Assembly (NCBI RefSeq): GCF_001006805.1
Contig: NZ_LN811350.1
Location: forward strand, 36,818-100,817
Reading direction: 5' to 3'
Source: Microvirga massiliensis
GTDB taxonomy: Bacteria > Pseudomonadota > Alphaproteobacteria > Rhizobiales > Beijerinckiaceae
DNA length: 64,000 bases
The notes below the pieces were generated by a model. The model had not been told where the DNA came from and made no database searches. It saw only the letters and a list, made by a program, of their open reading frames with translations. Each line of letters starts with the position of its first letter. The first letter of the stretch is position 1. Positions 35,813-64,000 of this stretch are shown one piece after another. Both the position numbers and the translations under genes were made by a program.

Positions 35813-37537
35813 ATGACGCGCCGCACTCCGGAATCCCTCCGCTCCCACCGCTGGTTCGGCGTCGAGGACCTGCGCGCCTTCGGGCATCGCTCCCGCACGC
35901 TCCAGATGGGCTATGGGCCCGAAGACTTCATGGGCAAGCCGGTCGTCGCGATCATCAACACCTGGAGCGACGCGCAGCCCTGCCACCAGCACTTCCGCCA
36001 GCGCGCCGACGAGATCAAGCGCGGCGTCTGGCAGGCAGGCGGCTTCCCGGTTGAACTGCCGGCGCTGTCGCTCTCCGAGAGCTGGGTCAAGCCGACCACG
36101 ATGCTCTACCGCAATCTCCTCGCGCTCGAAGTCGAGGAGCTCCTGCGCTCGCATCCGATCGACGGCGCGGTGCTGATGGGCGGATGTGACAAGACCACAC
36201 CCGCCACCATCATGGGCGCGATCTCGATGAACCTGCCCATGATCTTCATGCCGGCCGGACCGATGATGCGCGCCCATTATGGCGGCCAGATCCTGGGCTC
36301 CGGCTCCGACGTCTGGAAGTTCTGGGCCGAGAAGGAGGCCGGCGCCATCACGGACCAGCAATGGAACGACATGGAAGCCGGCATCGCGCGTTCGCACGGC
36401 ACCTGCATGACGATGGGCACCGCATCGACTATGACGTGCATCGCCGAAGCGCTCGGCCTGACGCTTCCGGGCGCGACCTCGATCCCTGCTGCCGATGCCG
36501 CGCATCCCCGCATGGCGGCTTCCTGCGGCCGTCGCATCGTCGACATGATCTGGGAGGATCTGAAACCCTCCGACATCCTGACGCGGCAATCGGTCGAGAA
36601 CGCGCTCGTGGTACACAACGCGCTCGCAGGCTCGACGAACGCCATGATCCACCTCGTCGCGATGGCGCGCCGCGCCGGCATCGAGGTGAAACTCACGGAT
36701 TTCGACGACTTCGCCCAGAAGGTTCCGGTGATCGCGAATCTGCGCCCCTCCGGCGCCTGGCTCATGGAAGACTTCCACATCGCGGGCGGCATTCGCGCAC
36801 TGATGAAGCGCCTCGAAGGATTGCTGCATCTCGAGGCGCGCACCGTGACGGGCAAGACGCTGGGTGAGACGCTGGAGGGCGCGGCAGTCTACAACGACGA
36901 CGTCATCCGCCCGCTCGACAAGCCCATCGCCGCATCCGGTGGAACCGCGATCCTCTATGGAAACCTAGCGCCGCATGGCTGCGTGATGAAGCCGCCGGCT
37001 GCCGAACCGCGCCTGCTCAGCCATACCGGCCCCGCGATCGTGTTCGACACCTACGACGAGATGGCGAAGGCCGTGAACGATCCCGATCTCGACGTGACGC
37101 CCGACCACGTCATGGTGCTGCGCAATGCCGGTCCGATCGGTGGGCCAGGCATGCCGGAATGGGGCATGCTGCCGCTGCCGAAGAAACTGCTGCGCGAGGG
37201 CGTGCGTGATATGCTGCGCATCTCCGATGCGCGGATGAGCGGCACGAGCTACGGCGCCTGCATCCTCCATGTGTCGCCGGAGGCCCACATCGGAGGTCCG
37301 CTCGCAGCCGTGCGCAACGGCGATCTCATCACCGTCGACGTTCCGAACCGCTCGATCCATCTTCATCTCAGCGATGAGGAGATCACCGAGCGCCTGGAAT
37401 TATGGAAGCCGCCGGCACGCGATTATCCGCGCGGCTACTACCGCCTCTTCGCCCAGCATGTCCGTCAGGCGCACGAGGGCTGCGACTTCGACTTCCTCGA
37501 GGGCGCGGGGGGCATCCCGGAGCCCGAGATTCATTAG
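35813..37537 (+). CDS. IlvD/Edd-family sugar-acid dehydratase (arabinonate/galactonate type)
   Basis: 574 residues from ATG 35813. Fe-S cysteines lie in AQPCHQH, GGCDKTTPA and GTCMTMGTAST; the last two are the family fingerprint. The sequence pattern (SQ/SHRWFG, GYGPEDFMGKP, ISDARMSGTSYG near the end) is closer to sugar-acid dehydratases such as L-arabinonate dehydratase than to biosynthetic IlvD. It would form a 2-keto-3-deoxy acid for the DHDPS- or RraA-type enzyme. The sugar is unknown. Confidence 0.87.
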   Translation: MTRRTPESLRSHRWFGVEDLRAFGHRSRTLQMGYGPEDFMGKPVVAIINTWSDAQPCHQHFRQRADEIKRGVWQAGGFPVELPALSLSESWVKPTTMLYRNLLALEVEELLRSHPIDGAVLMGGCDKTTPATIMGAISMNLPMIFMPAGPMMRAHYGGQILGSGSDVWKFWAEKEAGAITDQQWNDMEAGIARSHGTCMTMGTASTMTCIAEALGLTLPGATSIPAADAAHPRMAASCGRRIVDMIWEDLKPSDILTRQSVENALVVHNALAGSTNAMIHLVAMARRAGIEVKLTDFDDFAQKVPVIANLRPSGAWLMEDFHIAGGIRALMKRLEGLLHLEARTVTGKTLGETLEGAAVYNDDVIRPLDKPIAASGGTAILYGNLAPHGCVMKPPAAEPRLLSHTGPAIVFDTYDEMAKAVNDPDLDVTPDHVMVLRNAGPIGGPGMPEWGMLPLPKKLLREGVRDMLRISDARMSGTSYGACILHVSPEAHIGGPLAAVRNGDLITVDVPNRSIHLHLSDEEITERLELWKPPARDYPRGYYRLFAQHVRQAHEGCDFDFLEGAGGIPEPEIH

Positions 37538-51223: not shown

Positions 51224-52474
51224 CGGGACTTTACAAGTCGTGTTTGCAGCGAGCCGGGTGACGACGTCGAGCAAGATATTGGCGCCCGCGATGAGATCGG
51301 CGTTATGCGTGCGCTCGCGTGGGTTGTGGCTGATGCCGCCGATGCTTGGCACGAAGATCATCGCCGATGGCGCGATCCGCGCGATCATCTGGGCGTCATG
51401 GCCGGCGCCCGAGGTCATCCGCTTCGCGGCAAGCCCGCGCTCGCGGGCCGCGTCCTCGATCAGCGCAACGATCGTCCCGTCGAAGGTCACGGGTTCGGTC
51501 CGCACCAGGCGCTCGACCGAGATCGTCACATCCTCGGCGGCCGCAAGCTCCCTCAGATAGCCGGCAAGGGCTGCTTCCTCCGCCTGCAGGCGCTGTTCGT
51601 CGGGGTTGCGCAGATCCACCGTGAAGGTAGCTCGCGAGGGGATGACATTGATCCCGTTCGGCTCGAAGCTCATGCAGCCGACCGTTGCGACCGTGGGCGT
51701 GTTCGCGTTCCGGGCCCGGTCGCGCAGGAAGGTGATTACGCGCGCTGCGGCATGACCGGCATCCTTGCGCATGGACATCGGTGTCGTGCCGGCATGGTTG
51801 GCAACGCCCTCAACGGTGATGCGCTGCCACGAGATGCCTTGAAGATTTTCGACCACACCGACCGACACACCCTCGCGTTCGAGCACGGGTCCCTGCTCGA
51901 TGTGCAATTCGAGATAGGCATGCGGCGTCAGGAAACCTGGTTCTTCGGAGCCGGCATAGCCGATCCGCTCCAGTTCCGCCCCGAGCACGGTGCCATCGGT
52001 ACCGACGGCGGCCAGTGCATCCTCGACCGTGAGCCCGCCGGCATAAACGAGTGAGCCCATCATGTCGGGCGCGTAGCGCACACCCTCCTCGTTCGTGAAC
52101 GCAGCGACTGCGATCGGTCGTGCGGAAGCAAATCCGGCCGCCTTCAGGGTTTCGATCACCTCTAGCCCCGAGAGGACGCCGTAGCATCCGTCATAGATGC
52201 CGGCATCGATCACGGTGTCGATGTGCGAGCCGAGCAGGACCGGTGCCTCGCCCGCGTTATCGGCGTTCTTCCATATCCCGAAGATATTGCCGACGCGATC
52301 GACCGCGGCCTCCAGGCCGGCTTCACGGAGCCATGCCACGAGGGTATCGCGCCCGGCCTTGTCGGCGTCGGACCCGGCAAGTCGGACCAGCTTGCCGTCG
52401 CGGTCGCGGCCGATTTGTCCGAATTCACGAATGCGGGCGAGCAAACGCTCCGCGTTGATCGCGAGATCGATCAT
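51194..52474 (-). CDS. Zn-dependent M20 amidohydrolase (allantoate/N-carbamoyl amino acid type)
   Basis: 426 residues. LLGSHIDTV, IYDGCYGVL, FTNEEGVRY and LELHIEQGPVLE give the two-metal ligands of the AllC/HyuC/beta-ureidopropionase family; PSIGGISHNPRE is the C-terminal signature. It removes a carbamoyl group, releasing ammonia and carbon dioxide in purine or pyrimidine breakdown. Its ATG overlaps the stop of the truncated dpaL by 4 bases. The last about 15 residues extend past the usual end. Confidence 0.88.
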   Translation of the reverse strand: MIDLAINAERLLARIREFGQIGRDRDGKLVRLAGSDADKAGRDTLVAWLREAGLEAAVDRVGNIFGIWKNADNAGEAPVLLGSHIDTVIDAGIYDGCYGVLSGLEVIETLKAAGFASARPIAVAAFTNEEGVRYAPDMMGSLVYAGGLTVEDALAAVGTDGTVLGAELERIGYAGSEEPGFLTPHAYLELHIEQGPVLEREGVSVGVVENLQGISWQRITVEGVANHAGTTPMSMRKDAGHAAARVITFLRDRARNANTPTVATVGCMSFEPNGINVIPSRATFTVDLRNPDEQRLQAEEAALAGYLRELAAAEDVTISVERLVRTEPVTFDGTIVALIEDAARERGLAAKRMTSGAGHDAQMIARIAPSAMIFVPSIGGISHNPRERTHNADLIAGANILLDVVTRLAANTTCKVPSSGIQRGRA

Positions 52475-52947
52475 GCCCGTGCCCCTGCGGCCCAGAAGGC
52501 CGCGCCGGCCGTCACGGTCTCTGGCCTCACGCCGACCAGATCGGCGTAGCGCTCCAGGTCGGTCGCGCCTTCCGTGTTGATGACGAAGACCCGGGACATT
52601 GCATCGAGATCAAGTGCCACTCGGATCTCGGGATCCGCCGCGGCCCGGACGAGGCCGGCGAGCCCCACACCGCCGCTTTCGCCCGCCACGATGGCGGGAT
52701 CGCTGCCGCCCGGGCGGGCGAGGCGGTTCATCACCGCGACTGCATCCTCCTCGTCGACGGTCATGAAGGCGTCGGCAACCCGGGACAGCACCCGCCAGGC
52801 GACCCGCGAGGGCTCGTAGCACTCCAGCATCGCCATGACGGTCGGCGCGCCGGGCGCGATCTTGACGGGGCTCGCCCTGAACGTCCTCCTAGCAACCTCC
52901 ACCGTCATCGCGCATTGACAGAGCGACCGGTTCGACGTTCCTGGCAC
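52471..52947 (-). pseudogene. dpaL: 5'-truncated diaminopropionate ammonia-lyase
   Basis: Only the C-terminal about 130 residues of a roughly 400-residue PLP enzyme remain: APTVMAMLECYEPS, then AGESGGVGLAGL (a glycine-rich phosphate-binding segment) and FVINTEGATDLERYADLVG. The domain carrying the PLP lysine is absent. The gene breaks off about 40 bases from the divergent gnd start, so its 5' end was lost there. It may still be translated and coupled to the amidohydrolase gene. Confidence 0.82.
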
Positions 52948-54910: not shown

Positions 54911-55040
54911 TCCCTCATCCTTTCCGGTAGTGCGGCACAGCGGGGCTACTGGCTAGGCGACCAGATCCTCCAAAAAGATGATTGTCGGCGATCATATTTT
55001 ATGATTAAATTCCTAAAGCTCGACAAACAGGATCAGCCGC

Positions 55041-55463
55041 ATGCCTTTTATATCGGCAGCAGAGGCTGCAACTTTGACGGCGCTCAATCTGCATCGGCGG
55101 AGCGAGCAGGACGGCAGGGCGCTCAACCGGGTTCGCGTGTCCGACAAGACACTCCGCGAGATCACGGGGAGACGCCGGCTCGACGGCCGGTTCTTCGAGG
55201 ATTTCGCGGAGGAACTCCTGGAACTTGGCTGGGTCATTATACGCACTCATTCGGCCTGGGGCTTCCTGCGCGCCAGTGCCGTCATGGGTTGGCCGCGTAT
55301 CAACACATCCCGGATCAGTGACGAATTGGATCAGATTGCCGGAGGCAATCTCCATTCTGTAATCAGAGGAGCCCAGGCCGAGCTGGATACTCAGAGGGAG
55401 CCCGAAGCCGATTCCAATCCGGAGGCCCTGCATGCTGTCCCGAGAGAACTCGCGGCGGTTTGA
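55041..55463 (+). CDS. Small hypothetical protein
   Basis: 140 residues, preceded by AGGATC and an AT-rich stretch (TATTTTATGATTAAAT, about 54993-55008) that may hold its promoter. The middle (KTLREITGRRRLDGRFFEDF and LLELGWVIIRTHSAWGF) looks like a small winged-helix or effector fold, with balanced composition suggesting a real protein. I know no family. It is the first gene of the AT-richer region and points toward the secretion genes. Confidence 0.55.
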   Translation: MPFISAAEAATLTALNLHRRSEQDGRALNRVRVSDKTLREITGRRRLDGRFFEDFAEELLELGWVIIRTHSAWGFLRASAVMGWPRINTSRISDELDQIAGGNLHSVIRGAQAELDTQREPEADSNPEALHAVPRELAAV

Positions 55464-55518
55464 CGGAGGTTACATCCGCCCAGCCTCGACTCGCGGAGCT
55501 CAGGCGAGCGAGAGGCGA

Positions 55519-55532
55519 AGAGTTCGAACTCT
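55519..55532. promoter_or_regulatory. Perfect 14-bp palindrome before the ABC exporter gene
   Basis: AGAGTTCGAACTCT is fully self-complementary and lies about 135 bases upstream of the exporter start, between outlying CAGGC/GCCTG arms. It may be an operator for the island genes. The TTCGAAC recalls a tRNA T-loop, but no tRNA can be folded here. Confidence 0.4.
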
Positions 55533-55575
55533 GAGCCTGGGCTACCGCGTCTTGCTGAGAGAGCCTCGCCGGGAG

Positions 55576-55599
55576 AACAGACCCGACCGAGGGTCTGTT
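55576..55599 (+). terminator. Stem-loop upstream of the ABC exporter
   Basis: AACAGACCC and GGGTCTGTT pair over 9 bp with loop GACCGA, followed by TG. It may end the small upstream gene or regulate entry into the exporter operon. Confidence 0.55.
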
Positions 55600-55665
55600 T
55601 GCAGCCGGGCAAGGTCTGCTTCGGTGACTTTGATCATCTAACGCGCCTTAATTTGCGGGAAGCCG

Positions 55666-57393
55666 ATGTCCAGGTTGGGACGCAAAAGGACTGCCAGCAA
55701 ATCCGGGGTTATCCGCGCGGCCTGGAAAGCATCCAGGTTTGGTCTGCTCACAATTTTTGTCCTTAGCATCTTCATCAATATTCTGAGATTTGTTACACCT
55801 TATTACTTGTTACACGTACTTGACCGTGTCCCTGCGAGCCGAAGCGTTGAAACGCTGGTCATGCTTACGGCTGCCGCGATTGTTGCAATCCTGACCGGAC
55901 TCGCACTCGATGGCATACGTCGAAGGATGCTCGCACGGTGGGGCATTTGGATCGAGCAGCGCTTCGGCGCAAAACTTTTGGACCGAAGCCTCAACGACGC
56001 TATCAGTGCCCATTCTTCGATAGCCCGCCAGTCTCTCGACGACCTGTCCAAGTTGCGCTCGTTCGTTACCCGGTCCGCAACATCATGGCTTGACCTGATC
56101 TGGGCACCACTTTTCTTTTTTGGTGTTTATCTCATTCACCCGTTGCTCGGAGCCCTAACATTGGGAGCCGTTGGTCTCCTCATGCTGTCGGGAGTAGTTC
56201 AGGAGGCAATAAGTCGCGAACCACGACGTGCGGCGCGGCAGGCCTCGAGCGAGGCTGGGCAGATCGTCCTCGCAGCTGAGCGCAACATCGAGACCGTTGG
56301 AGCGCTGAGCATGTCACCCACTCTCATCGAGAAGTGGCGAAGAAGCGTATTTACTCAACATGACGAGCGCGACCGGTCCGAGGCGAGCGCAACCTTCTAT
56401 CTCTTGATGAGAAGGGCGATCGGGCAGTGCCTGCGAATTGGTATCATCGGTGTCGGCATATGGCTGTTCCTCCAGCATTCGCTGACACTCGGCGGCATGT
56501 TCGCTGCCCGGGTGATGGCCGGGTATGGTTATCGATTGGTCGAGAAGGCCGCAAGAAGTTGGGTCAATCTAAAAGAAGCGATAGCCGCTTACAAGAACGT
56601 GAAAATGCAACTCGCCGAAGATGAGGTCAGACCGGTCTCCTATCACAGTTCCACCTACAATTCGGCGGTGCTGATAGAAGATGTCAGCTTTCGATACCCA
56701 GGAGGTCGCGATCACATATTCCGGAAGTTCAGATTAGAGATACTTCCCGGAGAACTCGTGCTCGTCATTGGCGGAGCCGCGACAGGAAAGACGACTCTCT
56801 CGCGGCTGATCGTTGGCCGCATCTTACCTAACCGAGGTCGGATCAACATCGGGGATATTGAACTGACGCGCCTTCCGGCGGAGGTGCGCGCTGAACTGGT
56901 TGGTTACTTGCCGCAGCATACCGAGCTCTTTAGCGGAACCGTGCGGCAAAACATAGCCCGAATGTCCGATGGTGCCTTCGAGGATATCATTGCTGCTGCA
57001 AGGCGAGCAGGGGTGCACGAAACCATCCTGCGGCTGCCCCAAGGTTACGACACCGAGATCTCGGACGATATATCGGGCCTATCTGGCAGCGAGCGCAAGC
57101 GTATCGCATTGGCCCGCGCGTTCTACAGGTCGCCACGACTGGTAGTACTGGATGAACCCGCAGCCAATCTGGACCGCCCGTCCCGCAGAGTTTTGGAGGC
57201 GGCCTTGCGGGAACTCAAGAACGAGGGAGCCTCCATCATCCTGACTCAAACTGTGCGCTCGCCAAGATTGGAGAAAATTGCCGACAAGGTGGTGACTCTT
57301 GGCGGCCGCTTCCCAGTCATAACCCGCTCCGGTGCAGTCGAGGAGAGACCCGAGGAACGAAGCCAAAGTGTCGATTTGAGGAGCGTAGGTTGA
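55666..57393 (+). CDS. Type-I-secretion-like ABC exporter (PrtD type) with altered H-loop
   Basis: 575 residues. Residues about 25-320 are a six-helix exporter membrane domain; there is no C39 peptidase domain. The ATPase domain has Walker A GGAATGKTT (about 369), Q-loop YLPQH, signature LSGSERKR (for LSGGQ), Walker B LVVLDEPAANLD, but where the switch histidine is expected it reads ILTQTVRS. Gln for His usually slows or abolishes hydrolysis. No RTX-type substrate gene is nearby. Coding is less GC-rich than in flanking genes. It overlaps the adaptor gene by 4 bases. Confidence 0.88.
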   Translation: MSRLGRKRTASKSGVIRAAWKASRFGLLTIFVLSIFINILRFVTPYYLLHVLDRVPASRSVETLVMLTAAAIVAILTGLALDGIRRRMLARWGIWIEQRFGAKLLDRSLNDAISAHSSIARQSLDDLSKLRSFVTRSATSWLDLIWAPLFFFGVYLIHPLLGALTLGAVGLLMLSGVVQEAISREPRRAARQASSEAGQIVLAAERNIETVGALSMSPTLIEKWRRSVFTQHDERDRSEASATFYLLMRRAIGQCLRIGIIGVGIWLFLQHSLTLGGMFAARVMAGYGYRLVEKAARSWVNLKEAIAAYKNVKMQLAEDEVRPVSYHSSTYNSAVLIEDVSFRYPGGRDHIFRKFRLEILPGELVLVIGGAATGKTTLSRLIVGRILPNRGRINIGDIELTRLPAEVRAELVGYLPQHTELFSGTVRQNIARMSDGAFEDIIAAARRAGVHETILRLPQGYDTEISDDISGLSGSERKRIALARAFYRSPRLVVLDEPAANLDRPSRRVLEAALRELKNEGASIILTQTVRSPRLEKIADKVVTLGGRFPVITRSGAVEERPEERSQSVDLRSVG

Positions 57394-58754
57394 GCACCGC
57401 CGGGCTAATCACGCAGCAAGTTGCAGTGTCGAATACTATTCCAATGCGCAACCCCGATTGGTCTGGCACAGTCGGCCCACCATTTGGAGCGGGTTTAATA
57501 ACGTTAGGCATCACCATCATTGTCATATTTCTGGGTCTCACTGCCGGATGGTCACTTCTCGCACCGCTTGAAAGCGCTGTAGTCGCACCTGGCGTGATCG
57601 TCGTCGACAGTCATGTGAAAACGGTACAGCATCTGGAGGGAGGTATCGTCGAAAGTATTGCGGTTCGCGAAGGCGACAAAGTAAAGGCGGGAGACCTCTT
57701 GATCACACTGCAGGATACGATGCCTGCCTCGGCACTGAACGAGATACGTGCTCAGTACCTTGAAGCGCGAGCAACCGCCGCGCGCCTCGTAGCTGAACGA
57801 GACAATGCGGATTCCCTAACCTTCCCGCCTGACCTAATCTCCAGGTCGTCAGAGCAGAATGTCCATGACGCAATCGCTGGACAAGAGAGCATCTTTCAAA
57901 GCCGCCGCACTCTCCTCAAGCAACAGCTGACGATCCTTGAGCGCACCATATCCGGGCTGCAGATCGAGATCCAAGGCCTGGAAGGTCAAATTGCCGCCTC
58001 TAGAACAGGTCTGACGCTGATTGGAGAGGAACTGAGTGATGCACTCAAGCTACTAAGTCAGGGACTTACGAACAGGCCACGTGTGCTGGCCCTGCAGCGT
58101 CATAAGGCTGAAATCGAGGGCTCCATTGCCAGCTACTTGGCCTCCATCGGAGCCGCGCAGCAGCGTATCGAGCAAGCACGATTGCGAAGCGCAGAGCTGC
58201 AAGCCTCAAGCGCGACAGAGGTGGTCAAAAATCTCGATGCGGTCAGGACCCGCGCTTACGAGCTTGCTCAGAAACTCGCAGCTGCGGAAGATGTCATGCA
58301 ACGGACGCAGATCCGGTCTCCAACCGACGGCATTATCGTTACGATGAAGGTACATACGATCGGCGGCGTCATAAGTGCCGGGCAACCGTTGATGGATATT
58401 GTCCCGGATAACGACAAGCTCATCGTTCAGGCGTCGATCGATGCATTGGATATCGATCAGGTGCAAGCTGGTCTTCCCGTCACAGTATGGCTTTGGGCCA
58501 TCAACCGGAGGAACCGCGCTGCCCTCGAGGGCAGGTTGCAGATGGTGTCCGCAGACCGGGTGGTGGACCCAAAGTCGGGTTCCGCCTATTACGTCGGCCG
58601 CGTTGAAATCGACTCAATGCCATCCGATGCGTCGGTTGCACTGCAGCCAGGAATGGGGGCCGATGTCATGATTCGAACCGGTGCCCGGACACCATGGGAA
58701 TATGTAAAAGCGCCAATAGCACGCTTCATTCAAGGGTCCCTCCGGGAGGAATGA
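57390..58754 (+). CDS. HlyD/PrtE-type secretion adaptor
   Basis: 454 residues from TTG 57390, supported by GAGGAG 6 bases upstream; the TTGA overlaps the exporter stop. One N-terminal membrane helix (about 35-60), a lipoyl half (VKTVQHLEGGIVESIAVREG), a long coiled-coil hairpin (about 110-300), the second half (QIRSPTDGIIVTMKVHTIGG) and a beta-barrel match type I secretion membrane fusion proteins. It would join the ABC exporter to an outer membrane TolC encoded elsewhere. Confidence 0.9.
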   Translation: MSTAGLITQQVAVSNTIPMRNPDWSGTVGPPFGAGLITLGITIIVIFLGLTAGWSLLAPLESAVVAPGVIVVDSHVKTVQHLEGGIVESIAVREGDKVKAGDLLITLQDTMPASALNEIRAQYLEARATAARLVAERDNADSLTFPPDLISRSSEQNVHDAIAGQESIFQSRRTLLKQQLTILERTISGLQIEIQGLEGQIAASRTGLTLIGEELSDALKLLSQGLTNRPRVLALQRHKAEIEGSIASYLASIGAAQQRIEQARLRSAELQASSATEVVKNLDAVRTRAYELAQKLAAAEDVMQRTQIRSPTDGIIVTMKVHTIGGVISAGQPLMDIVPDNDKLIVQASIDALDIDQVQAGLPVTVWLWAINRRNRAALEGRLQMVSADRVVDPKSGSAYYVGRVEIDSMPSDASVALQPGMGADVMIRTGARTPWEYVKAPIARFIQGSLREE

Positions 58755-59070
58755 GGGCGTTGGCAATTGTTATTGGCCGCTGCGGGATCATACATGGCTG
58801 TCGTATGAGGCTGTCGGACCAGCCACTGGCGCGGAAGCATGCGTTTCCGATGACATTGGTGACCGCAGGATTGCCTCTCACTGCTCAATCGAACCTTCAT
58901 CAAGTGAGGTTCCGCGAAGCTCAGTTGCGTGCGTTGACATTCTCGATGACATGGAGGTGATCGATGCTAGACTTTCCGTTACGCAGTATTTGCGCTTGTC
59001 TTTATTTTGTTCTCCTCGACATCAAACTCTGAAGGGGCTAGCATCGTTGAATCTTTAAAAAAGCGCAGCA
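58755..59070 (+). other. Leader region with a signal-peptide-like stretch out of frame with capA
   Basis: About 315 bases. A strong GGAGG at 58953-58957 precedes ATG 58964. Just downstream, in another frame, RYAVFALVFILFSSTSNSEG reads like a signal peptide, but it has no start codon of its own and does not join the CapA frame, which has a stop at 59056. No intact gene is present. A frameshifted 5' end of the CapA gene is one explanation. Confidence 0.4.
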
Positions 59071-60207
59071 ATGTCACCTCACGATATGATCACACCCGAG
59101 ATTACTATCGTTTTCGGCGGGGATACCAGTCTGGGCGATGCATATCTAAGTAAACTTAAATCTGGTGAGCATCTTCAGAGGCTGAAATTTCGCCCGCTCA
59201 GCTTCTTCGACGCGCTGGAACCTCTTATCACTGACAAGTACCGTCTTATCGTCAATCTAGAGACGGTACTGTCCGATGGACCAAAACCGCCTATCAATGA
59301 AAAGAAGCAATACTGTGGTTGGGACACGGCGGAGCGAACGATAAACGCCCTAAAGTCTATCGGAGTAGATGCTGTCTCGCTGGCGAACAATCATACAATG
59401 GATTTCGGCTCCGCCAACCTGACCCCAATGATCTCCCTGCTCAAGACGGCGGATGTTCACGTTCTCGGCGCTGGGGAGAACATCACGGAGGCATCAGAGC
59501 CCTGGAAGATACGTTCTCCTCACGGTAGCATTTATGTGATAGCGGCGTTCGAACTCCGCAGGCAATACAAAGATCTCTATTCCTTCTATGCCGGAAATAG
59601 AAAGCCGGGTGTTAATTATTTCAAGCTGCGGCGACGCAACCGGCTGTCAGCTGCAATCAGTTTGATTAGGCGAACTGATCCTAACGCTCTCATCATAGTG
59701 TTTCCTCATTGGGGGGGAGCGGTCAATTACGGTCCACCGACAGAGCGGATGTTGGACGCAAACGAGGGATTCTTCGAAGCTGGCGCTGATTTGGTGTTAG
59801 GACACGGATCTCACAATGTACAACCGTGCTTTGCGTCTCCTATTGGAACCACGGTATTCTCGATCGGCAATTTCGTTTTCAACTCACCAGGCCGATACAG
59901 AATGTATAATGCATCGCCGTACAGCTTGATTGGACGCTTGAGCCTCGGGCGCTCCCACGGCGGCTGGACGGGAAGGTTGAAGCTTTACCCCATCGTTTCC
60001 GATAACCAGAAAACCGGATATCAACCCCGACCAGTGCAAGAAAAGGAGGCGCTGGAGGTATTCCAGTTTCTATCGGTAGGCGAAAAACATGATTCCGATC
60101 GAGGGTTCGAGCTCCAACGCGACGAGCGGGGGTGGTACATTGTCCGGACAACCCCACTCAGTCGTCAATTCGCTCACCATTCTGATTCAACCGACCGTTT
60201 GTTGTAG
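59071..60207 (+). CDS. CapA-family metallophosphatase-like protein
   Basis: 378 residues. TIVFGGDTSLGD, NLETVLSDG, LANNHTMDFG, VFPHWGG and GHGSHNVQP give the metal-ligand motifs of the CapA/PgsA family, which is needed for poly-gamma-glutamate capsule synthesis in Bacillus and is found in many polymer loci. Unlike usual members it has no in-frame signal peptide or membrane anchor, and its ATG lacks a good ribosome binding site. An out-of-frame hydrophobic stretch lies just upstream. It sits between the secretion pair and the ATP-grasp ligase. Confidence 0.85.
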   Translation: MSPHDMITPEITIVFGGDTSLGDAYLSKLKSGEHLQRLKFRPLSFFDALEPLITDKYRLIVNLETVLSDGPKPPINEKKQYCGWDTAERTINALKSIGVDAVSLANNHTMDFGSANLTPMISLLKTADVHVLGAGENITEASEPWKIRSPHGSIYVIAAFELRRQYKDLYSFYAGNRKPGVNYFKLRRRNRLSAAISLIRRTDPNALIIVFPHWGGAVNYGPPTERMLDANEGFFEAGADLVLGHGSHNVQPCFASPIGTTVFSIGNFVFNSPGRYRMYNASPYSLIGRLSLGRSHGGWTGRLKLYPIVSDNQKTGYQPRPVQEKEALEVFQFLSVGEKHDSDRGFELQRDERGWYIVRTTPLSRQFAHHSDSTDRLL

Positions 60208-60546
60208 TGTGCGCCATGATACGCGTAAGCATGACTCGGACAGCCGTGGAAGTCTCGCGCTTCATTTGCCCTGTTGCGCGATGACTTAGCAAGGCATTTC
60301 GGTGCAGGAATATTGCCAAGCTTTCTCGTCAGACCAATGCATTCCGTGTTAATGGTCGCACTGAATGCAGATTCAACGCGTTCTTGATCCGCCCCTGAAC
60401 CGAGCCAAGGATGTCCGTTCAGTTCTAGGAGGACAAGGTTGTAGACTCGACGGATTAGCATGATGATAGACGCTCGCGAGGTTTTCTTGACTAGAAGATC
60501 ACGTGAAGTCGTACTATAAGACAATCAGGTAGCATTGCGGAGGGAA
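60208..60546. other. Intergenic region before the ATP-grasp ligase
   Basis: About 340 bases. TTGACT (60487) and TACTAT (60512) could be a promoter, though the 19-bp spacing is long. A minus-strand frame (about 60524-60174) contains MLIRRVYNLVLLELNGHPWL but lacks support as a gene. Nothing else is recognised. Confidence 0.35.
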
Positions 60547-62766
60547 ATGCTTGTCATGCACGACGCAACTCCAGACCTCCTCTCTGCCCCCCCCGATGTC
60601 CGGTTCACCGACGCGGAGGCAGGAGGCTCATTTCCCCGGATCATCCGAAGCTCCCTACTTCGAGGCTGCAATGTGTATCACACTTCAAGTGTGCTGAGCC
60701 TCAAGGTCGACCTTGGAGGCCTAGCGCAGCTGAGGACTTCCGATCTTGGACCGGACTTTCCGCTACGGTTCAATAGCTACTTCCCCGTTGTGCCGCCTAT
60801 CCTCCCGCCATCTTCATCTGATCAGGGCGTTTCCTCAGAATATCGATCTAAGCTCTTATCTCCTGCGGGCGTTGAGATTGGCGAGGCGTTGCTGGAGGCA
60901 ATAATCTCCGTCGAAGCAACAATTCTCAGAACGATGTTTTTTCTGGACCGGGTTCAGTTTGCCTCCGTAATTCCCGGCAGCGATGATCATGAAGTAATTT
61001 TGGTATGGGAAACCCTGGACCCTGAGATGTCACGGTCGTCGGCAGAGGTCGCGGTAGCCGGATTCGTTGAAATATCTCGACAGAATGCTGGCCACTCGAG
61101 GAGTGGGGAGTACGAGCTCGCATTGCTGAAACTCACTCAGCGCGCAGAGAGGCGCCGTATCTCGAGTTCTACGGCGGTTCTGAAGAGAGCTGCGTCCCGA
61201 CTGGGCATACCTTTCGAGTTCATTACCCGTCGACAACTGCGCCTTGGACATGGTGTATGCCAGCAGCGGTGCCTTTCGACCATGGGAGGCTCGACGTCCT
61301 ATTCGGCAGTGCTGATGTCATTAGACAAGCATGTAAGCAATCTCCAACTCACTCAACTATCACTACCAGTCCCACGACAATTTAAAGTGGCCAATATCGC
61401 AGAGGCAGTCGCCGCTCTCGAACGCATAGGTAGGCCTGTCGTCGTCAAGCCAGTACAGGGCAATCAAGGTCGCGGAATTACCATCGGGGTGAAGAACCCG
61501 CAGGAAATTGATGCTGCCTTCCAGCTCGCTGCTTCCGAGGAGCACGGAGTTCTCATCGAGGAGTTGGTGCTGGGGAAGGATTATCGCCTTACGGTCGTAG
61601 GCGGGAAATTCGCTGCCGCTCTATTGTGTGTTCCACCACAGATTCGTGGTGACGGTGTGCGCACCATTCGGCAACTCATCGACGAGCTGAATGCCGAGCC
61701 TGACAGGGACAAGCTGCGCTTCTCACCGATTACTTTCGACGATGAACTCAGAGATCATCTCGATTCCCTGGGCTACGGGCTCGACTCGATACCAGCACCT
61801 GGCCAGCTTATTGCGGTCCGAGCGACCGGGCATGTATCTAGAGGAGGTATTCCGATTGATGTAACGGATCTCGTTCACCCCGACAACCGGAAGGTCTCCG
61901 AGGAGGCTGCTCGCGCGATGGGACTCGAGATTGCGGGTGTAGACTTCGTTTCGCCGGATATTTCGAGATCTTACCGCGAAATAGGTGGCCGGATCGTAGA
62001 AGTGAACTCGCGTCCGGGCGTTGGCATGCATCTGTGGCCACGTGAGGGGACATCGCGCGACATGGGGGTCGCCATTCTTCGCCATATGTTCCCGGATCCC
62101 GCCTCTGCCTGCGTGCCGTTTCTTCTCGTCGCAGGAGATCGAGGCCGTGGCTCTGTGGCCCGCTTCGTTGACGGCATGCTGCGGGCGAAGGGTCTGACCG
62201 TGGGGCTCAGCCTAAAGCAGGGAGCCTATATCAATGGGCGGTCGCTCGATGTTCCAGAGGACAAGCTGCAACACGCGCCCAACATCCTCTTGCGGCAGCC
62301 GTTAACTCAAGCGGTGGCAGCTGCCGTGTCCCTCCGCCATGTAGCGAAGCATGGACTGGGGTTACAGAAGTGTGATGCGGTGTCGCTGGTGTCTTTGGAC
62401 TCGGAAAAAATTTCCGACGAGTATGAGAAGGGGTTGGCGGTTCTACTGAAGGCGAACCGAGGGCGGTTCATCGTCAGCTCAAAGAATCGGTTTGCGCGCC
62501 AAGCGCTTTCGTCTGTGGATCGATCTCGGATCGTCCTGATCGCTGCAGACTCTCGCGATCCCGAGGTGAGTGATCACCTCGCGATTGGGGGAGCAGCTGT
62601 TGTGAGGCGCTGGTCAAATGACATGACGGGACTGCAATTTGCATTCGTCGAGGCAGGAGAAGAAGTTGTATCGACTCAAATGCCGAGCCTTTCCGGTGCA
62701 AGACAGCAGCATATCGAGGCGGCCATGCATGCGTTTGCGCTCACTCATACTACCCAACTCAGTTAG
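60547..62766 (+). CDS. Cyanophycin-synthetase-like ATP-grasp ligase with degenerate Mur domain
   Basis: 739 residues from ATG 60547, directly after GGAGGGAA. The N-terminal domain and linker follow CphA (GHGVCQQRCLSTMGGSTSYS). An ATP-grasp domain starts near residue 296 (PVVVKPVQGNQGRGITIGV), with FSPITFDDELRDHL and IVEVNSRPGVGMHL. The Mur-ligase-like part begins near 525, but its P-loop reads GDRGRGSVA instead of GTNGKTTT and the domain is about 180 residues shorter than in CphA1. So one ligase centre looks intact and the other dead, as in CphA2-type enzymes. The product is probably an amide-linked polymer or conjugate, not certainly cyanophycin. Confidence 0.85.
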   Translation: MLVMHDATPDLLSAPPDVRFTDAEAGGSFPRIIRSSLLRGCNVYHTSSVLSLKVDLGGLAQLRTSDLGPDFPLRFNSYFPVVPPILPPSSSDQGVSSEYRSKLLSPAGVEIGEALLEAIISVEATILRTMFFLDRVQFASVIPGSDDHEVILVWETLDPEMSRSSAEVAVAGFVEISRQNAGHSRSGEYELALLKLTQRAERRRISSSTAVLKRAASRLGIPFEFITRRQLRLGHGVCQQRCLSTMGGSTSYSAVLMSLDKHVSNLQLTQLSLPVPRQFKVANIAEAVAALERIGRPVVVKPVQGNQGRGITIGVKNPQEIDAAFQLAASEEHGVLIEELVLGKDYRLTVVGGKFAAALLCVPPQIRGDGVRTIRQLIDELNAEPDRDKLRFSPITFDDELRDHLDSLGYGLDSIPAPGQLIAVRATGHVSRGGIPIDVTDLVHPDNRKVSEEAARAMGLEIAGVDFVSPDISRSYREIGGRIVEVNSRPGVGMHLWPREGTSRDMGVAILRHMFPDPASACVPFLLVAGDRGRGSVARFVDGMLRAKGLTVGLSLKQGAYINGRSLDVPEDKLQHAPNILLRQPLTQAVAAAVSLRHVAKHGLGLQKCDAVSLVSLDSEKISDEYEKGLAVLLKANRGRFIVSSKNRFARQALSSVDRSRIVLIAADSRDPEVSDHLAIGGAAVVRRWSNDMTGLQFAFVEAGEEVVSTQMPSLSGARQQHIEAAMHAFALTHTTQLS

Positions 62767-62879
62767 ATCTTACGACGATTTACGGAGCATGCGTACCGAT
62801 CGCAGTATCGAATAGCTCGTGTCGCAAATCCTCCCGAATCGATCCGAAACCCTCACCACGAGGTTTGATGAATTTCTGA

Positions 62880-63175
62880 CGGTCCGGTGTTATGCTTTGA
62901 TGAGTTGCTTTCCGGTTCCTAACCGACACACTGGTATCTCAGCTAGTCGCCTGCGGGCGAATCGCGCGTCAACTATGAGTACCGGCGACAGGGCTCGGCC
63001 AACCTGTTTTATGCGCTGAGCCGCCGGCGGGACGGCGCCACGTGGGTGTGACACCACGCCAAGCCAAACAGGAGTTTGCCGAGCAGATGCATGCTCGTCT
63101 ACATGCAACGTTCCAGGGCTTGGGTGATTGTGGTGGCGCTGGATAATCTGGGTACCCACCCTTCGGCTGCAGGCA
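62880..63175 (+). pseudogene. Decayed IS630-type transposase fragment
   Basis: In plus-strand frames broken by stops and frameshifts the DDE transposase pattern can be read: CFDE (first catalytic Asp), NYEYRRQGSANLFYALS, then PRQAKQEFAEQMHARLHA in a second frame and VVALDNLGTHPSAA (second Asp) in a third. The N- and C-terminal parts are missing and no terminal inverted repeats were found. It lies between the ligase and the acyltransferase gene, marking past insertion. Confidence 0.8.
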
Positions 63176-63214
63176 GGTCAAGCATCAAAATGCGGCCGAC
63201 CCCATTGTCGTCGA

Positions 63215-63985
63215 TTACACCATTATCCAACCTAGCGTCATCTGCTTATCGGCAGCGTTCACTGCAAATCTCTCCTTGGCCCAAGCAAGCCCGGGCTTTC
63301 CGATTGCGGGACCGACGTTGATCCACTGGCGATCAAGATATAATTTGGACAACTCATGATCGATGTAAGGAGTCACGTTATATTCATTGTCGCCTCTGCG
63401 ATGAACAGAAGCGACCCATGATGCGCCGAGATGGCTTCCGACCCCGTAGCCGATCACGTCATCGTCCAGCACCACGGCCAGATGGCGCACGCCCAACGGC
63501 TCCAGCAGAGACAAGTTCTCGAACGTCCAGACCGTACGCCGTCGATGATAGGTCGTCCGACCGTTTGCCGTCTTTGCCGCATACCACCTGTCGTTGCAGG
63601 CCAGCACGCGAGCCAGGTTCTCCGGACCAATCGGCTCTACATGCGCGCCAGCCCTCGAGAGCCTGCCGACTTTTTTGCGGGTTCCTTTCCAAGAGGATCC
63701 GCGCATCTCGGAGACGGTTTCGCGGTGCCAGACGAATTCGCGATGGCACTCGACCTTATTGAAGTCGTTCTTCCAGCCTTCCTCCCGCTGTTCAGGCACA
63801 TACCCCAGGAGATCGCCGGGCCGGAGCGCCTTTGCTTCGCGGTCGAGAATGCGCTCATACGCCTCCCAGTCGGACACCAGCGGCAGCAGCTTGGTCTTCC
63901 GGCCGAGACGCAGGAGAATGCAGTCCGCCTTGACCTCCTCCGAGGCCCCGCGGGCAAAGTCCTGCGCCAGTACCAGCAAATTCAT
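63215..63985 (-). CDS. GNAT/FemAB-like acyltransferase, possibly 5' partial
   Basis: 256 residues from ATG 63985; the frame stays open to the window end (PGYGMNLLVLAQD), so the real start may lie beyond. GSSWKGTRKKVGRLSRAGAH resembles the basic helix of DUF2156/lysyl-phosphatidylglycerol synthase-type GNAT domains, and HLAVVLDDDVIGYGVGSHLG and NVTPYIDHEL fit the acyl-donor core. Such enzymes transfer an aminoacyl or acyl group to an amine or lipid. It points toward the ligase gene across the transposase remnant; a joint role is inference. Confidence 0.6.
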   Translation of the reverse strand: MNLLVLAQDFARGASEEVKADCILLRLGRKTKLLPLVSDWEAYERILDREAKALRPGDLLGYVPEQREEGWKNDFNKVECHREFVWHRETVSEMRGSSWKGTRKKVGRLSRAGAHVEPIGPENLARVLACNDRWYAAKTANGRTTYHRRRTVWTFENLSLLEPLGVRHLAVVLDDDVIGYGVGSHLGASWVASVHRRGDNEYNVTPYIDHELSKLYLDRQWINVGPAIGKPGLAWAKERFAVNAADKQMTLGWIMV

Positions 63986-64000
63986 GCCGTAACCAGGAAT

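Follow-up and report, generated by a model that had tools for sequence, protein, structure and literature searches.

Genes at the locus

The window analysed here, a stretch of 64,000 nucleotides, covers positions 36,818 to 100,817 of contig NZ_LN811350.1 of Microvirga massiliensis (G000:C1:36818-100817). Its right-hand part carries genes for an ATP-grasp ligase related to cyanophycin synthetase (CphA), here called CphL, together with an ABC exporter, an HlyD adaptor, a CapA-family protein and a GNAT acyltransferase. The locus is real and recurs, and its core is a CphA-like ligase of a one-site subfamily. The initial annotation described four plus-strand genes and a GNAT gene facing them, an arrangement borne out by the open reading frames (ORFs) and the family matches. 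The features are listed below; D1611 is a P-loop protein encoded further downstream.

55666..57393, plus strand: PrtD-like type I ABC exporter, 575 residues (family matches; eight other loci have relatives next to D1611 and HlyD)
57390..58754, plus strand: HlyD-family membrane-fusion adaptor, 454 residues (TIGR01843, above cutoff)
59071..60207, plus strand: CapA-family protein, MslH-like, 378 residues (PF09587)
60556..62766, plus strand (ORF open from 60535): CphL, one-site cyanophycin-synthetase-like ATP-grasp ligase, 736 residues
63215..64000, minus strand: LPG_synthase_C-type GNAT, truncated by the window end and probably representing the C-terminal half of a TPR-GNAT protein
55001..64000, no strand: AT-rich tract, extending about 10 kb past the window

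Two of the gene limits in that annotation need adjustment. The ligase ORF does run from 60535 to 62766, but its start is more likely at 60556, giving the 736-residue protein P0001. The GNAT ORF at 63215-63985 is present on the minus strand (PF09924, 32.7 bits, cutoff 27.5), but its frame is still open at base 64000, and a run of N lies directly past the window end, next to this gene. Since its relatives in Microvirga and in genome G257 are C-terminal halves of TPR-GNAT proteins of about 500 residues, 63985 is probably not the true start.

Similarly, the limits first given for the locus, 55666..63985, enclose these genes, but the locus continues for about 10 kb beyond the window. The whole cluster occupies about 17 kb, from about C1:92483 to 109640, of which the window holds the left part. 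The downstream genes (L004) are, in order, a hydrolase (Hyd1), a second GNAT, a MurF-like ligase that keeps GTAGKS at the P-loop, a second hydrolase (Hyd2) and D1611, with two runs of N between them. Hyd2, which resembles the poly-aspartate hydrolase PahZ1, looks by eye to be Sec-targeted. The second GNAT (L004:4676-5439) has 78% protein and 85% DNA identity to the first (window 63215-63978); the two genes are a DNA duplication, and the 5' side of each adjoins a run of N.

D1611 is a 592-residue P-loop protein with a mutator-transposase-like tail (L004:9863-11641). No Pfam family passed its cutoff for the D1611 part and no clear Pfam family was found for the hydrolases. Fold and PDB searches gave matches for both where Pfam did not, in the case of D1611 to a putative DUF1611/dethiobiotin-synthetase-like P-loop fold; a family not listed in the fold results is not taken as excluded. 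D1611 was also considered as a D-glutamate N-acetyltransferase (DgcN); the papers listed by literature searches were unrelated, and this identification is not used here. The IS256-like tail was considered as a transposon insertion, which is rejected because a similar tail recurs in L008, in the Microvirga copy (587 residues, annotated simply as transposase) and in listed homologues (PF00872 in 6 of the 120 D1611 homologues among the matches listed). Tails of this mutator-family type, carried or apparent, are seen at L004:9863-11641, L008:7954-9684 and L086:7239-9002.

The region was also said to be richer in AT than its surroundings, and it is: GC content is 55.4% from 55600 on and 64.5% before 54500, and none of 108 one-kb windows before 54.5 kb has a GC content of 57.5% or less. 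The claim that it is bordered by gene wrecks holds in part. Positions 52407-52870 hold a gene fragment with 96% identity to DNA on another contig, but the immediate left border has a 140-residue ORF without a family. The fragment (window 52407-52947), which resembles a diaminopropionate ammonia-lyase gene, matches contig C35 over 465 bp (L138:3878-4341), where a longer counterpart lies about 100 bp after a gene for a PahZ1-like hydrolase with an additional C-terminal domain. Transfer, the origin suggested at first, fits the AT-rich tract and the presence of a related cluster on a Microvirga plasmid, but a search for an empty site, with one gene per flank in 21 genomes each, found no side-by-side pair.

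Recurrence of the gene set

The exporter-adaptor-ligase neighbourhood, whose recurrence had been proposed as a check, is found at nine loci including the window, and CapA at six of them. The other eight, in proteobacterial genomes, are L006 (Geminicoccaceae), L132 (in the same genome as L006), L008 (Paracoccus), L009 (Pseudomonadales), L011 (Pelagibius), L086 (a related cluster on a Microvirga ossetica plasmid), L110/L117 and L118; most of the loci from L006 to L011 are metagenome-assembled. D1611, ABC and HlyD are present at all nine loci, as is an ATP-grasp ligase, which is CphA-like at eight. A PahZ1-like hydrolase is found at 8/9 and a GNAT at 4/9. At five of the six loci with CapA the domain is fused, to a ligase or, in L011, to another domain.

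L006, L008, L009, L011, L132 and L086 were reached through the ligase, and L110 and L118 through D1611. The ligase count is therefore biased for the first six of these relatives, in which HlyD, ABC and D1611 played no part in the selection. A CphL scan of genome contigs gave at least 80 loci, of which L006-L011 are of the CphL type and the other 74 served as controls. L007 (Sedimenticola) and L010 are contig ends, the former with CphL, two hydrolases and a GNAT, the latter with ligases only. The 74 control loci contain no HlyD, no D1611 and no hydrolase of this type, ABC at three and CapA at one. Any ABC match of at least 200 residues within 5 kb was counted as ABC.

HlyD and ligase/CapA also occur together at loci approached from D1611. 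Among 57 loci reached through D1611 alone, two have both HlyD and a ligase or CapA, 55 have neither, and none has one only (Fisher p=0.0006). This includes the locus in G257, counted by hand, where ligase/CapA lies 12.5-13.4 kb from D1611, past the 12-kb limit; the other loci were not extended likewise, and without the hand count there is one locus with both, one with HlyD only and 55 with neither (p=0.035). Among the D1611 loci examined, HlyD is present only at those that also have an ATP-grasp ligase. The sample is uneven: two families (those of L008 and L006) and one order (that of L011) were targeted deliberately, and one of these groups supplied L118. In the first set 20 of 37 matches were taken, 14 were not, and three known CphL-type loci were kept out of the 57; in the second, 14 of 16 matches were taken, the others being G780, already included, and G794, a match of 154 residues. 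Some stretches are short contigs, and absences there are therefore weak.

Alphaproteobacterial genomes and plasmids also contain a simpler module, in which D1611 stands with another kind of ABC exporter (L087-L090, L092-L094, L119-L123, L140-L147, L151, L152, L155 and others), with no HlyD or ligase within the stretches examined. It often adds a divergent PahZ1-like hydrolase, an Asp/Asn β-hydroxylase, and two-component or extracytoplasmic function (ECF) sigma/S8 peptidase genes. The β-hydroxylase, near D1611 in 19/57 loci, is a second hint of aspartate. Elsewhere, L116 and L117, from two genomes of the genus of the window, have a fusion of RimK-type ATP-grasp and CapA together with GNATs and two further genes, for an ATPgrasp_ST-acylphosphatase and a beta-lactamase-like protein. 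The latter two also adjoin the Pelagibius locus L011. A distant D1611 homologue (26%) on a Priestia megaterium plasmid (L091) has as neighbours two ATP-grasp ligases, thiamine pyrophosphate enzymes, and genes of the ornithine-carbamoyltransferase type and the phosphoenolpyruvate-mutase family, which is suggestive of a phosphonate peptide cluster.

The proteins of the cluster

The best models for the ligase are those of cyanophycin synthetase, NF010623 and TIGR02068. Their cutoffs, 877 and 850 bits, are not reached by scores of 411.5 and 371, and the protein is therefore CphA-like, below CphA itself. In a PDB search it is homologous to CphA1 over residues 29-730 (E 4.7e-87; 7lgm, 7wac and others). 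In a search of 5.8 billion proteins, of which the best 120 matches were listed, a small top group (P0001-P0027) scores from 1618 to 358 bits, and the matches listed from 339 bits down are mostly full-length CphA-type proteins. The possibility raised earlier, that the ligase falls inside a characterised cyanophycin clade, is answered in the negative: in a tree built by a quick method, the 17 canonical rows lie beyond a branch with an SH-aLRT of 99 and the CphL rows on a separate branch with 100. This tree left out four fragmentary or odd CphL rows (A_P0006, A_P0007, A_P0010, A_L010) and B_L011.

The available parts of two papers describe CphA1 as having three active sites, the Mur ligase site being the one that adds arginine (PMC9262961, PMC9427784). 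The CphL alignment has 33 rows (the 27 proteins P0001-P0027 and six loci, some of them fragments), compared with 17 canonical CphA rows. The ATP-grasp residues of the G domain are kept, with Lys261 in 33/33 rows, Arg309 in 33/33, the metal-binding Glu in 32/33 and Asn in 33/33 (numbering of PMC9427784, mapped by alignment to the CphA of this genome and not to the TeCphA1 structure). By contrast, the Mur-ligase P-loop is found in 0/33 CphL rows and 17/17 canonical ones, and neither PF08245 nor PF02875 has a Pfam match in the window ligase. The N-domain motif HxxEH is seen in none of the 29 CphL rows that cover its columns (the other 4 of 33 are fragments without them) and in 17/17 canonical rows. 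According to a partial text, the primer-making Cx19HxxEH site occurs in 83% of nr70 CphA1 sequences, and some real CphA1 have no such site (PMC9262961). To judge from these motifs, CphL is predicted to retain one of the three active sites of CphA1. It was also considered as the cyanophycin synthetase of the strain, and rejected: CphL has no motif for two of the three sites, and the genome has its own CphA elsewhere (contig C14, L005), with all expected Pfam domains and an adjoining peptidase-S51 (cyanophycinase-type) gene.

In a separate list of 120 database proteins, 15 are fusions of a CphA-like ligase to CapA (P0241-P0255), and a sixteenth, P0263, has another layout. In Sulfuricellaceae a 2256-residue fusion protein (L059:7811-14581), which has a GNAT in its vicinity, combines CapA and two MurF-like ligases with a CphA-like part.

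The CapA assignment made at first stands (PF09587, 138.5 bits); its analogy to the poly-γ-glutamate capsule is weakened, because CapA is fused to a ligase in several relatives and because its model is closest, in a comparison of predicted structures, to the peptide epimerase MslH. The family PF09587 is common to this locus and to CapBCA/PgsBCA, unlike which the relatives of the locus fuse the CapA domain to ligases; CapB and CapC were not noted among the scanned neighbour ORFs, in which no search aimed at them was made. MslH epimerises the C-terminal Trp of a lasso peptide (PDB 8gq9, 8itg), and CapA has a predicted calcineurin-like fold with the MslH subdomains. The dyads His88/Asp91 and His295/Asp11 and the ligands Glu44 and Asn87 of MslH correspond to H108/D111, H248/D18, E64 and N107 of CapA, which are invariant in 17 rows. 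The counterpart of the ligand His259 is probably H213, and the position matching His261 appears to be Gly. CapA differs from MslH in scoring only 47.5 bits against the equivalog NF038314 (cutoff 700) and in the fusions to an ATP-grasp ligase in relatives.

All four hydrolases queried, Hyd1 and Hyd2, the homologue from Microvirga and a divergent one from a simpler locus, have PahZ1 (6ve6, 9o7u) as best PDB match and nearest solved relative. LpqC (3d0k) scores nearly as high, and by homology Hyd1 and Hyd2 are putative poly-aspartate hydrolases. As described in part of one report, PahZ1 is known from the breakdown of thermally synthesised poly-aspartate, and the Pedobacter enzyme cleaves β- but not α-aspartyl amides and prefers L-Asp followed by D-Asp (PMC4456602).

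The exporter pair has the ABC plus HlyD architecture of PrtD/HlyD type I secretion. The adaptor scores 372.5 bits with TIGR01843, above the cutoff of 208.65. Unlike a typical type I system, the ABC protein is below the cutoff of its best model (TIGR01842 PrtD, 412.7 bits, cutoff 510.15) and its neighbours are ligases. A match to defence systems was discarded, as the exporter gave only generic ABC hits to mad3/mad8.

Proposed function and alternatives

On the basis of these observations, we tentatively favour, at somewhat less than an even chance, a function in which an isopeptide product is assembled and epimerised inside the cell, exported, and trimmed outside. CphL would use ATP to activate a backbone carboxylate and add single amino acids, likely aspartate, stepwise and without arginine side chains. 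CapA would invert the configuration of a residue at the growing end or close to it, D1611 would modify the product ahead of export, and the ABC-HlyD pair would export the peptide-like, likely aspartyl, product. The GNATs may transfer an amino acid from aminoacyl-tRNA, adding it or exchanging it for another, and the PahZ1-like hydrolases may trim or recycle the product outside the cell. That an isopeptide polymer or conjugate is synthesised and exported, as the initial annotation had it, is still something that we infer. A narrower version, in which the product is a natural, exported aspartyl polymer of mixed D/L configuration, β- or α-linked and without arginine, with CphL making the backbone, CapA flipping residues and the PahZ1-like proteins as dedicated depolymerases, we consider unlikely as it stands.

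A number of points weigh against the proposal. CapA was not found at three of the nine loci nor GNAT at five, the MurF-like ligase was found at none of the eight others, and the only complete gammaproteobacterial case is one 13.5-kb contig of a metagenome-assembled genome (L009). One point in favour, the correlation of the ABC, HlyD and D1611 distances across the nine loci (r 0.73-0.90), may only reflect the species tree. Of the CphA1 residues that bind the substrate aspartate, Arg323 is Cys in the window CphL, Asn394 is His and Arg458 is Gly; His267 of the P-loop is Gln (numbering and mapping as above). Across the CphL rows the three are kept in 13/33, 18/33 and 4/33, and His267 in 1/33. Because these residues are replaced in the window protein, aspartate is not assured and the monomer cannot be read from the ligase; simple poly-aspartate synthesis by an otherwise unchanged G domain is likewise weakened by the three substrate-binding differences. 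In addition, a second CphL-like protein in L006 (L006:2792-5083) has no ATP-grasp lysine in the alignment, and the arginine is gone too; it is possibly an inactive partner subunit.

The main rival concerns the cargo. PrtD/HlyD pairs normally carry proteins, and the cargo of this exporter may be a hydrolase instead of the product. The ABC-HlyD pair would then be an ordinary type I system that secretes a protease or the PahZ1-like hydrolase, and the ligase, CapA and D1611 would make a different molecule, perhaps one that stays inside the cell. The same genome encodes, on contig C35 (L138:2596-3777) and so away from the window exporter, a PahZ1-like hydrolase of 394 residues whose C-terminal domain is of serralysin type. 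This domain shares 50% identity with the one in an RTX serralysin encoded directly after HlyD in G257, and the hydrolase is a possible cargo of the window exporter. Its 60% identical homologue within the related Microvirga cluster (401 residues) carries a C-terminal domain as well as a proline-rich linker. Since hydrolases of Microvirga and of this genome share a domain resembling the end of an RTX serralysin, protein secretion is a serious rival. A cargo candidate inside the cluster is seen only in Microvirga and G257, however, and the domain was not found at E 1e-3 in the cluster-bearing genomes G778, G781, G783 and G850, with a weak match in G780. D1611-ABC pairs also occur without HlyD. 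Furthermore, a hydrolase of this family lies within 5 kb of D1611 at 31/57 loci, whereas HlyD is at 2/57, both with an ATP-grasp ligase (one 12.5 kb off), so that HlyD accompanies the ligase, not the hydrolase, though in two cases only. We regard secretion of the hydrolase as somewhat less likely than the favoured function.

Given the likeness of CapA to a lasso-peptide epimerase, the ligase and epimerase could instead act on an encoded precursor exported by ABC-HlyD, as in pathways for ribosomally synthesised and post-translationally modified peptides (RiPPs). RiPPs are served by ABC exporters, and S8 peptidase and ECF sigma genes stand at some simpler D1611 loci. ATP-grasp ligases are described, in the available part of one article, as making graspetides (PMC8939145). 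Against this, no conserved small ORF (22-110 residues) was found outside the matched genes, a weak test as precursors evolve fast, and the sole small-ORF cluster shared by three loci seems to be the hydrolase gene read in antisense. CphL is also nearest to a non-ribosomal polymer synthetase, and a RiPP pathway seems improbable. Horizontal acquisition of unrelated genes that lie together without functional meaning would fit the AT-rich tract, the gene fragment and duplicated GNAT nearby, and the variation of gene order between loci. The occurrence of the same gene set at eight other loci, the gene fusions and the absence of the set from the 74 control loci make this very unlikely.

A full-text search found no open-access paper that joins cyanophycin synthetase with the CapA family, and among the papers listed by broader searches no title or opening of an abstract describes this locus. 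In the accessible portion of a cyanophycin gene-cluster survey, the term 'ABC transporter' does not occur (PMC10206079); in that of a Sideroxydans paper, cphA1 and cphA2 are adjacent and matches to 'capa' are words such as 'capacity' (PMC5178258).

If the preferred reading, intracellular assembly followed by export, is true, a clade often named 'cyanophycin synthetase' in databases does something else, with one of the three active sites of CphA1, a partner of peptide-epimerase fold and an exported product. PahZ1, known from degrading synthetic poly-aspartate, would gain a plausible natural class of substrate. A mixed D/L aspartyl product would explain the preference of PahZ1 for L-Asp/D-Asp junctions, as given in part of the report on that enzyme (PMC4456602), and a mixed D/L poly-aspartate would represent the first dedicated biosynthetic route to poly-aspartate.

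Few biodegradable polyamide routes are known, namely those to cyanophycin, poly-glutamate and poly-lysine, and under the preferred reading a new one would join them. Even without the product, the recurring D1611-ABC-hydrolase module of alphaproteobacteria is a testable gene set of which no description was found in the open-access literature.

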